In this document: one piece after another, positions 47,449 through 50,071 of the stretch
Numbering within the stretch: the stretch's first letter is position 1
How the letters are laid out: each line of letters opens with the position of its first letter
NCBI GenBank assembly: GCA_900696465.1
Contig: CAADGE010000029.1
Coordinates: 62,001-126,000, forward strand
Length of the DNA stretch: 64,000 nt
Source of the DNA: an uncultured Planctomycetota bacterium
GTDB taxonomy: Bacteria > Planctomycetota > Phycisphaerae > UBA1845 > UTPLA1
Direction: 5' to 3'
Made by a program: the position numbers and the translations under genes
The notes under the pieces: generated by a model
The model's input: the letters and a program-made list of their open reading frames with translations, nothing else
Database searches by the model: none
What the model was told of the DNA's origin: nothing

Positions 47449-48297
47449 TTATGAAGCAAGCGTAGTGCGTCTCCCTCGAACTGCGAGTATTGCACCTGTG
47501 ACCAGCAGTAAGAGCAGGACAAAAATACCAAAATTCGAGGCGGCTGAGATCGGAGGTGGTAGGTTAAGTACTCCGATCGGATGAAGCTCATAGGATCCGC
47601 CATTCCCAACGATTCCCGGTGCGAGGCTAACTGCGATGCCGCCGGGAAACAGATCGTTTACCACGATAGCAGGGATACCCTGATCGAACTTAACTCTGTC
47701 GTTAACGGAGTCATAGTATCCTACAACGTTCGCACCGCTTGGTCCCAGTTGAATGGTGTTGACACCAGTAGGGTCGCCACGGAAATTAACCGAGCCCGCT
47801 GTCAAATTAATCGAAGTAACGCGAACCGGTATCGCAGATGCGGGTCCGCTTTCTATAGTGAGATCGAATGTACCAACAAAATCACCAGCACCATCCAATA
47901 CCTGGCTCTGTAGGACCATGCCATTGGAATCGATGTCACTGAAGTCAGCGATTTCAACATGATTTCCACTTTCATGGGCCAAAGTAAAAGTAATCACTGT
48001 GTTTTGCGCTAATGGAGCATTTGGCTGGCATCCCCAAGCTCCAATGCTCAAGCATCCTCCTCCACTATTCACTGCCGGGCAAGCGTCACAAGCACCATTG
48101 CCGTTGGCGCCTCTGACGGATGTGCAGGTTCCTACCTTACCTGCTGGGCAAAGTGGAGGCGGGTCAGAACATTTCCAGAATCCACCTGGATCCCAGACGC
48201 TTGGGCAATAATTGGATGCGATAGCGCCCATGGGGGAGAGCAAGGGTAACATGATGACCAATAGTACGGTGAATGATCGGGTCACATTGTTCGACAT
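47449..48297 (-). CDS. Secreted protein with C-terminal sorting-type tail
   Basis: 282 residues. AAGGAG lies about ten bases ahead of the ATG. A signal peptide (SFTVLLVIMLPLLSPMGAIAS) is followed by a Cys-rich block with ten Cys in residues 31-92 (CPSVW, CSDPPPLCPAGKVGTC, CDACPAV). A beta-rich middle comes next, and a C-terminal LPPPISAASNFG + hydrophobic helix + RGRRTTLAS. That end has the three-part shape of PEP/IPTL-CTERM-type sorting signals, though the motif is not a clean match. It is 70 bases downstream of an Lnt-like membrane protein on the same strand, and both are AT-richer than the rest. No enzyme domain is visible. Confidence 0.7.
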   Translation of the reverse strand: MSNNVTRSFTVLLVIMLPLLSPMGAIASNYCPSVWDPGGFWKCSDPPPLCPAGKVGTCTSVRGANGNGACDACPAVNSGGGCLSIGAWGCQPNAPLAQNTVITFTLAHESGNHVEIADFSDIDSNGMVLQSQVLDGAGDFVGTFDLTIESGPASAIPVRVTSINLTAGSVNFRGDPTGVNTIQLGPSGANVVGYYDSVNDRVKFDQGIPAIVVNDLFPGGIAVSLAPGIVGNGGSYELHPIGVLNLPPPISAASNFGIFVLLLLLVTGAILAVRGRRTTLAS

Positions 48298-48367
48298 AAT
48301 GTAGCTTCTCCTTGAACGAAGTTTGTTTTGTTAGATTTCTTCGGCTCTAATCACATTGCATACATTT

Positions 48368-49060
48368 CTACGAATATACTGGCGGTGGTCGGGCAAAGAG
48401 GAGATTCTGTGGAAATAAGCCGAAGGTGGACTCTTGATTGTGAAGAGCAAGAATTAGACCGCTCGCAATCGGTCTTCGTGAGATATTCTCGAAGGATACA
48501 CACAAGTGGCTGGCCAGAGAAACGAGGATCGCATTGGAGTATGCTACCGCAAATGCAATCAGAAGGAAGCCGAACAAGCCGCTACACGTAGCGACGAAAC
48601 TGCTGCCTTGCAGGGCGGCGGCGAGTAAGCCGAGACCCAAGTTCAGCGGTAGCAAGGAGATTTCGAAGAACAGGTACGCAAGGGCTAAATAGAAGGGGCC
48701 GATACGATGTCGGTGATGCAGGAACGATGCAATAGCGGTAAGGCCGCTGGATGTGACAGTAATCCAGCATAGTGCCGGTATTGTGGCAGCAGTGCCAGTA
48801 TCGATTGTATGTCGTAAGCAGTACCAGATGCACATTCCCCATAATGCGCCTGCAAATGCAGCAAGGTTCGGTTTGTAGCATCTAACGGCGGCAAAGAGCG
48901 GAATTAATCCAAGGAATCCAAGCCAACTGCTTAATTGGCGCGATTGTGTTAAACCGAGGAGCATGGCGCTGGCAAAGAGTCCGAGCAGCACAAACGTGTG
49001 TGTCAGTGCGCGCCTCTTGCATCTTGCACGGCCAGGTTTTGCACGGTGACTTCTTCCCAC
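48368..49060 (-). CDS. Apolipoprotein N-acyltransferase-like membrane protein without nitrilase domain
   Basis: 230 residues from a GTG at 49060 behind AGAGGA. About six to seven hydrophobic segments begin after a very basic N-terminus. LSSWLGFLGLIPLFAAVRC, FAGALWGMCIWYCLRH, FFEISLLPLNLGLGLLAAAL and CSGLFGFLLIAFAVAYSNAIL follow the order of the Lnt membrane domain (compare the family's LTGVYGVSFLxVLxNALL region). The carbon-nitrogen hydrolase part that performs acyl transfer is absent. The protein could be a truncated copy, a scramblase-like relic or a partner for the secreted protein encoded next to it. Composition is AT-rich, suggesting transfer. Confidence 0.65.
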   Translation of the reverse strand: MGRSHRAKPGRARCKRRALTHTFVLLGLFASAMLLGLTQSRQLSSWLGFLGLIPLFAAVRCYKPNLAAFAGALWGMCIWYCLRHTIDTGTAATIPALCWITVTSSGLTAIASFLHHRHRIGPFYLALAYLFFEISLLPLNLGLGLLAAALQGSSFVATCSGLFGFLLIAFAVAYSNAILVSLASHLCVSFENISRRPIASGLILALHNQESTFGLFPQNLLFARPPPVYS

Positions 49061-49503
49061 TCGGTCGATTTCCTCTCATTCGGGTCTTCGATGGATTGAG
49101 CGCGCGCATAAACGCCGTTTCTGCGATTTCGCTCGGGTCGCGTCCAACCCAAGATTAGCATTTCGATACACCTTGTTCTGCCGCGCTAGAGTAGTGTGCT
49201 GCGCGGAGAAGTTATTGACAGTACGCTGAACTCCAATCGAGAAATTCAGCGGTAGAACTGGATCAACTCAGAGGTCATTTCGTGGCGAACACTCGACTGG
49301 AATAAGTTGATCCTTTGTAAACGGAATCTTAACAATCCGTTGGCTCTGATTCAAGATATGAACGAGTGGAATTCAGAGTAATCGAAGGGATGTGTCGGCG
49401 TCACGAGGGCAACATGCGTTTGATGCAGCACTTGAGAAAACAGAACCTGCGCGTCCGTTGATGCAGTGTCAATACTGGGCGCGAATTAATCGCGCGAAGT
49501 GCC
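49061..49503. other. AT-richer non-coding stretch
   Basis: About 440 bases with no supported frame. Composition is clearly lower in G+C than most of the window. A GCGCGA-5-TCGCGC inverted repeat at 49479-49495 lies just past the small ORF's stop and could be its end signal. No RNA gene recognised. Confidence 0.5.
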
Positions 49504-49662
49504 TCAGAGATTGCAGCCGAAGATGGACCCTAAGCTGAGCTGTTCGCGGAAGTAATAGTTTTCCAGGCCGAATGCTGCGAGGAATGAAGTAAATGCCGTG
49601 ATCAGGTTTTCCATGATGTCGAAGACCGTGACAATCAGATCGCAGAAGATTCCCTGTGACAT
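49504..49662 (-). CDS. 52-residue hydrophobic small protein
   Basis: Starts at an ATG at 49662 with GGGAGAG seven bases ahead, a good ribosome site. The product MSQGIFCDLIVTVFDIMENL, ITAFTSFLAAFGLENYYFRE, QLSLGSIFGCNL is mostly amphipathic or hydrophobic helix with one Cys near each end. The same frame runs further upstream (to 49788) but only as basic shadow-like sequence. It could be a membrane peptide, toxin-like peptide or bacteriocin-like precursor. I do not recognise the family. It sits alone in an AT-richer, gene-poor zone. Confidence 0.45.
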   Translation of the reverse strand: MSQGIFCDLIVTVFDIMENLITAFTSFLAAFGLENYYFREQLSLGSIFGCNL

Positions 49663-50071
49663 TTCATCTCTCCCGGCGGCCGCGCTCGCAGCCCGTGCAT
49701 TTTCCACTGTTCGTCGCGCAAGTCGCATCCCACGGTGAAGTTGTGGTCGGCACCGTACAGCGCGCCTGATCGACGCCATTATCTGCATCGGCGAATTCAG
49801 GGCTTTCGGCCAGTGGGCGACTCCATCGCCATTACGTCCCGTGATTCTTATTGCTTTAGTGGGCGATAGTTAAGGGCGTTCGTCCGCATTTTCGATGAAT
49901 TGCAAGCGTTCAGTTCGATTCTGCGTATAAGCTATTATTCAGCGGGCCCGGAACACGAAAGGGCTTGGTTAACAGCCGATGTTTTATGGAGCAGGAGGGC
50001 GGAGGCGGACTAACCGAAGAAGCGAAATTGCCGGGCCGGCGGCCCGGTAGATGTCGGCATTGGAGACTGCC
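49663..50071. other. 409-bp divergent intergenic region
   Basis: Separates the small hydrophobic ORF (minus) from the Gly/Ser-tailed gene (plus). The frame extending upstream of the small ORF has no ribosome site. Probable promoters for both genes lie here; none is clear by eye. Confidence 0.45.

Follow-up and report, generated by a model that had tools for sequence, protein, structure and literature searches.

A putative RAPP-class arrest peptide in an LNT_N-only membrane protein encoded ahead of exosortase substrates in Phycisphaerae

The gene pair and its composition

The window analysed here, a 64,000-nucleotide stretch of DNA from the 4.14 Mb draft genome of an uncultured planctomycete, carries on its minus strand a gene for a small membrane protein that lies 70 nt upstream of a gene for a secreted protein with a C-terminal sorting tail (Table 1). 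The first ORF begins with GTG and is preceded by AGAGGAA, a plausible ribosome binding site, and the second begins with ATG, its SD sequence AAGGAG being located at 48308-48313. A preliminary description of this DNA, made from its letters alone, had seen in the pair an AT-rich two-gene unit, and this is borne out: both ORFs are found where it placed them, and GC content is 52% in the 230-aa gene, 34% in the gap and 51% in the 282-aa gene versus 62% elsewhere, with GC3 values of 0.53 and 0.46 for the two genes versus a mean of 0.74 for the 13 other genes of the window. As for transfer, which was also suggested from this composition, the AT-richness is specific to this copy. It is not a trait of the family, whose mean GC content (61%) is close to that of its flanks (60%). 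Because of this copy-specific AT-richness and of the absence of the gene from both same-genus genomes, horizontal transfer of the pair is possible, yet unproven. The AT-rich island continues upstream of the membrane-protein gene for ~1 kb at 52% GC (49061-50050), and one short ORF of note is found there (94 aa, 49504-49788, minus strand).

Table 1. Features of the gene pair (positions within the window)
Feature	Position	Strand	Remarks
LNT_N-only membrane protein, 230 aa, six predicted TM helices	48368-49060	minus	Proposed arrest-peptide leader
R-P-P-P motif codons (R224-P227)	48380-48391	minus	Corresponds to PRAPP/PRGPP in the relatives
Linker of 37 residues from last TM helix to motif	48392-48502	minus	In the family, length fixed and sequence variable
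Intergenic leader of tailed gene, 70 nt	48298-48367	minus	AT-rich, holds the SD
Secreted protein, 282 aa	47449-48297	minus	Signal peptide, Cys-rich N-terminal block, IPTL-CTERM-like tail
C-terminal sorting tail	47452-47559	minus	PPPISAASNFG-IFVLLLLLVTGAILAV-RGRRTTLAS

All the parts that had been ascribed to the 282-aa protein are present, i.e. a signal peptide, a Cys-rich block (at residues about 31-90) and a C-terminus resembling IPTL-CTERM, in which a P..SNFG motif is followed by a helix and by RGRR. The tail is recognized (E=4.4e-6) by a profile of the tails of the linked family from which the window sequence had been left out, and no other tailed protein of the window's genome is clearly found by the tail profile. 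The tails encoded downstream of other members of the family are of the IPTL type (TIGR04174), whereas that of the window is divergent (SNFG for SxWG) and falls below the NCBIfam threshold, the 282-aa protein having no NCBIfam (TIGR04174 included) or Pfam match. For the body of the protein, no homologues were found beyond weak matches.

A membrane protein family restricted to the LNT_N domain

A single-sequence search with the 230-aa protein retrieved relatives from the same family and order with ~24-37% identity. These proteins, mostly of 215-300 aa and with six predicted TM helices, belong to a family in which 13 of 18 members match Pfam LNT_N (PF20154, best 7e-10), the match in the relatives spanning nearly the whole profile. 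The window's protein taken alone has no LNT_N match, being below the Pfam and NCBIfam thresholds. The best PDB fold match of its AlphaFold model (mean pLDDT 74) is E. coli Lnt (5n6l), with a Foldseek probability of 1.0 but a weak E-value (0.08) and a TM-score of 0.45 over the query. The nitrilase (CN-hydrolase) catalytic domain is absent in all LNT_N-only members, so the likeness to an Lnt membrane domain without its nitrilase part, which had been proposed from the sequence, is upheld.

Besides lacking the nitrilase domain, the family differs from Lnt in ending with an RxPP motif and in its position in the tree, where a branch (support 82/81) separates the LNT_N-only proteins from the full-length Lnts of the same order, in a reconstruction that has modest support and long branches and in which some full-length rows were probably poorly extracted. 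The window's genome has two further LNT_N matches, in long Lnt-like frames located away from the pair, as expected for full-length Lnt, and the outcome that would have told against the preliminary description, a full-length Lnt as closest relative with a nitrilase fragment nearby, was not seen. A fragment or decayed form of Lnt can be rejected, since there are ~70 intact copies under constraint and the Lnt-like long frames are elsewhere. Within the LNT_N part, P54, W74, R116, W129 and E133 are invariant or nearly so, and this conservation may mean that the fold also serves some purpose besides insertion. The WxxxE motif of the family is apparently shared with Lnt.

Pairing with tailed proteins and the exosortase H context

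The family is present in 42 of the 114 genomes of the order (Phycisphaerae, Planctomycetota), with one to nine matches in each. As to spread beyond the order, the matches obtained in 392 genomes from the phylum were, the window's genome apart, all weaker and lay in long Lnt-like frames, and two peptide patterns scanned against one genome for each of 84,980 species returned only Planctomycetota. Named relatives are likewise Planctomycetota, many of them labelled Phycisphaerae or Phycisphaerales.

Flanking sequences were fetched for 74 copies, of which 65 are testable, the remaining nine being cut short by a contig end before the tailed gene is complete. In every one of the 65 testable copies, the next gene on the same strand encodes a protein with an IPTL-type tail, at a median distance of ~130 nt from the leader. 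This answers the check that the preliminary description had called for, namely whether homologues always adjoin tailed secreted proteins, and unrelated neighbours were seen in none of the 65. Named loci from another collection show the same pairing, several being repeat sightings of the same places. The downstream tails score with the NCBIfam IPTL_CTERM and midcut-by-XrtH models, and since the proteins that bear them vary widely in length (128-1513 aa), what goes with the leader is the tail. A single genome can have as many as about nine leader matches (G477, loci L202-L208 and L239; G467, loci L189-L192), with a tailed gene after every testable one, suggesting that leader and tailed gene duplicate as a unit.

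Of the 114 genomes, 57 encode exosortase H (XrtH, TIGR04177), and among the 42 with the LNT_N-only gene 41 do so (Fisher p ~1e-16, uncorrected for genome relatedness), which, together with the invariable pairing, supports the view that the membrane protein and the tailed protein belong to a sorting setting. The xrtH gene usually lies away from the gene pair, and in 18 loci it is found downstream on the same strand. In the loci examined, it is followed by a gene for an XrtH-associated-like membrane protein. In the window's genome, a different contig (G000:C19) encodes an XrtH-like exosortase, which scores 70 bits versus a cut-off of 86 and passes the cut-off of the general exosortase signature.

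Several features of these exosortase regions deserve mention in their own right. The window's genome encodes a second exosortase-family protein (G000:C30:142072-142356). On contig G000:C19, the divergent XrtH-like exosortase is followed by a membrane-anchored, TPR-looking protein that replaces the usual XrtH-associated membrane protein (L090:7725-9178), an arrangement also seen in genome G022 (L136:5605-7011). In L032, L033, L034, L038, L043 and L049, XrtH is followed by a family of membrane proteins of ~200-250 aa (...APWPGL...YLPT...FIVPVFIWI...) that is below the NCBIfam XrtH-associated model and itself gives weak XrtH matches. Finally, a small membrane protein of ~70 aa (...GSLISAPIFAYLVHLWIIYA...) lies between the tailed IPTL gene and xrtH or the contig end in L043 and L104, and a similar C-terminal sequence is found in L128.

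A C-terminal motif at a fixed distance from the last helix

The motif found at the C-terminus of the LNT_N-only proteins is, over 71 copies, PRAPP in 51, PRGPP in eight, ARAPP in four, SRAPP in two, TRAPP in one and RPPP in two, one of the latter being the window's. In this count, L037, scored at first as RSPP, carries an RAPP beyond that site, and two raw-table entries fit a looser pattern by chance. Arg and Pro-Pro are invariant and the residue between them is Ala, Gly or Pro. At the nucleotide level, the motif codons vary synonymously at every position, which places the constraint on the peptide and leads us to reject a codon- or DNA-level cause. R[AG]PP is found in the last 60 residues of none of the 699 other ORFs in these loci and in none of the six full-length Lnts checked. 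The motif stands close to the end of the protein (median 3.5 residues ahead of the stop codon), the length after it being free.

The distance that separates the motif from the membrane domain is nearly fixed. Counted from a conserved Gly in TM6 to the Arg, 57 of 70 copies have 61 residues and 11 have 62, with a single copy each at 60 and 64 (sd 0.5), the window's linker being one residue shorter than the norm in an ungapped alignment. The linker itself is barely conserved, with a pairwise identity of 12% versus a composition expectation of 7%, compared with 39% for TM6 and 93% for the motif. A linker of fixed length and free sequence ahead of a fixed tetrapeptide is the pattern to be expected of an arrest peptide that spans the tunnel of the ribosome. 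TM6 ends ~40-45 residues from the PTC and, since there are six helices, an even number, and a basic N-terminus, this helix should be N-out/C-in. The family thus combines a C-terminal RxPP, its nearness to the stop codon, a small membrane protein as carrier, a location upstream of a co-directional gene and a narrow TM spacing, the traits by which RAPP-class leaders are recognized.

Comparison with known arrest peptides

Several arrest peptides, ApdA and ApdP among them, have RAPP or RGPP as their core. In mutagenesis of ApdA and ApdP, Arg is irreplaceable, Gly is at least as good as Ala, and there is partial tolerance of Pro, Ser and Asp (PMC12992588). The residues between which the present family varies, Ala, Gly and Pro, are among the most permissive reported there. 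Changing Ala to Pro in ApdP, which creates the RPPP of the window, kept arrest strong in B. subtilis (2.4 units left versus 1.9 for the wild type) and gave an intermediate or partial arrest in E. coli (PMC12992588). RAPP-like motifs are also described there as avoided in proteomes and clustered near the C-termini of small secreted or membrane proteins, and RAPP leaders as sitting upstream of diverse genes (PMC12992588, PMC9426467). However, RAPP alone is insufficient for stable arrest in ApdA and ApdP (PMC7897499), and the majority of the RAPP-like sequences found in E. coli and B. subtilis did not stall (PMC10987492). Arrest peptides that monitor insertion by an N-out/C-in TM have short, narrowly distributed spacers (PMC10987492), and force profiles indicate that a helix completes its insertion and stops pulling when its C-terminal end is ~45 residues from the PTC (PMC7886326).

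The family shares with ApdA, ApdP and the set known from Streptomyces (PMC7897499, PMC10951233, PMC12992588) the invariant Arg and Pro-Pro, an intervening residue that is mostly Ala or Gly, and a core placed near the C-terminus of a small localized protein with a co-directional gene downstream. In those leaders, the carrier has a signal sequence, a single TM or two TMs, and the targets are sec, yidC, TonB and copper genes, whereas here the carrier is a polytopic six-TM LNT_N protein, the arrest is predicted and the target would be an exosortase substrate. CruR, a RAPP leader of Bordetella (DUF2946), similarly heads an operon and has a C-terminal RAPP, its N-terminal part being the sensor, but it senses copper by a CXXC and acts via Rho (PMC9426467), while the family has neither a conserved CXXC nor a C-rich rut. 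MifM, the YidC monitor, is likewise a membrane-inserted leader with the short and narrow spacing between TM and arrest site that is expected of insertion sensing; it differs in its arrest sequence, in having yidC2 downstream and in a median spacer of 54 (PMC10987492) versus ~39 in the family.

No common device by which arrest could act on the tailed gene was found in the intergenic region. In 65 loci, a SecM-type hairpin is unsupported, as the region under a stalled ribosome does not hide the downstream SD (p=0.51 versus shuffles). If this SD differs from shuffled sequences at all, it is in being more open, and on average its openness would be left as it is by a stalled ribosome. Intrinsic terminators are rare (terminator-like hairpins in 6/65 loci versus 2.5 expected by chance), and no sign of a Rho rut site was found, the intergenic RNA being G-rich and not C-rich. 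Stable intergenic hairpins are enriched (p ~1e-10 versus shuffles) and have no shared design; the window's own short gap has none. Short GC-rich hairpins (such as GGTGGG-CGATC-CCCACC and CGGGC-TTT-GCCCG-T6) were noted in L033, L036, L218, L235 and others, beginning at most ~6 nt from the leader stop codon in several loci.

Proposed mechanism and alternative readings

The conserved motif, spacing and gene order and the co-occurrence with XrtH point to a model in which the 230-aa protein would regulate through its own nascent chain, as a membrane leader of six helices that stems from the membrane half of Lnt and ends in a putative RxPP ribosome-arrest core (RPPP in the window, RAPP or RGPP in its relatives). 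The stalled ribosome would hold the third residue of the motif in its P-site, with the fourth occupying the A-site, just as helix 6 finishes its insertion in the membrane at a distance of ~40-45 residues from the peptidyl-transferase centre. By inserting or folding, this helix would pull on the chain and cancel the arrest, whereas after failed insertion or assembly the ribosome would remain stalled. Stall or release would in turn set the expression of the next gene, which encodes the secreted exosortase H substrate, and perhaps also that of XrtH itself in the 18 loci in which xrtH is downstream on the same strand.

The different parts of this model are not equally firm. Judged from motif and spacing in the sequences, which support arrest well, the family is quite probably an arrest peptide of the RAPP class, and for the RPPP copy of the window, which is likely weaker than the family norm, the same assignment is reasonably likely. 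Taken together, that a polytopic membrane arrest peptide leads an exosortase-substrate operon and has its arrest cancelled by insertion of the last helix appears probable on sequence grounds. Control of the tailed gene by the leader, for which conserved gene order is the support, is a proposal towards which we lean slightly. The wider notion that an Lnt-derived polytopic sensor uses RxPP arrest to tune exosortase H substrates (and XrtH in some operons) to insertion or sorting capacity is tentative, and we would put it somewhat short of even.

The tight association with the sorting machinery could also be read in favour of a protein that acts in sorting itself. The LNT_N-only protein might be a functional accessory of the XrtH/IPTL-CTERM system, e.g. 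a partner presenting lipid or substrate, with PRAPP as a cytosolic docking motif, which would accord with the pairing with tailed proteins in 65/65 loci, the co-occurrence with XrtH in 41/42 genomes, the 18 loci with xrtH downstream on the same strand and the near invariance of W129, E133 and P54 in the membrane domain. A docking motif, however, needs no 37-residue linker that is free in sequence and devoid of indels, and the tolerated substitutions fit ribosome arrest. Moreover, numerous IPTL substrates do without an LNT_N-only gene, as do certain genomes that have both XrtH and IPTL tails (some 45 other IPTL genes have neither this gene nor a RAPP leader of another kind upstream), and the sole catalytic candidate is one membrane Glu apparently common to Lnt, all of which makes an accessory role rather unlikely. 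Much less credible still is a dedicated sorting enzyme, transpeptidase or protease, for the tail of the neighbour, the role that the preliminary description had favoured on the strength of the arrangement. The one-to-one pairing would suit it, as would the fact that the neighbour is the only clear tail-profile protein in the window's genome, but no NCBIfam exosortase model matches any of 18 LNT_N-only members, these models matching other proteins of the same genomes, among them a separate XrtH. The fold is that of the Lnt membrane domain without its catalytic part, the C-terminus is an RxPP motif, and the search for conserved catalytic residues, which had been put forward as a check, gave no conserved Cys or His in the family alignment and only the above Glu. 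We therefore reject the sorting-enzyme role. Since XrtH is separate and both IPTL genes and XrtH genomes exist without it, the LNT_N-only protein is neither a sortase nor generally needed for sorting.

A further reading accepts the stall and confines it to the biogenesis of the membrane protein, as a pause for helix 6, the tailed gene being merely co-transcribed. It would be in keeping with an intergenic region that has no SD-sequestering, terminator or rut signature, but it leaves unexplained why the next gene, otherwise so diverse, always encodes a tailed exosortase substrate, and we regard it as quite improbable. A regulatory leader that senses insertion of its last helix is the reading that we prefer.

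Significance

Exosortase systems are widespread. To our knowledge, the regulation of their substrates has not been described, and none of the papers searched joins exosortases with translation arrest. If the proposed mechanism is true, it would be the first case known to us of a bacterial C-terminal sorting pathway under translational feedback, and RAPP arrest peptides would gain both a new carrier fold and a new class of target. It would also link protein sorting to nascent-chain sensing and supply ~70 natural sequences in which the TM-to-arrest geometry is fixed and which are directly suited to standard PURE and lacZ reporter assays.
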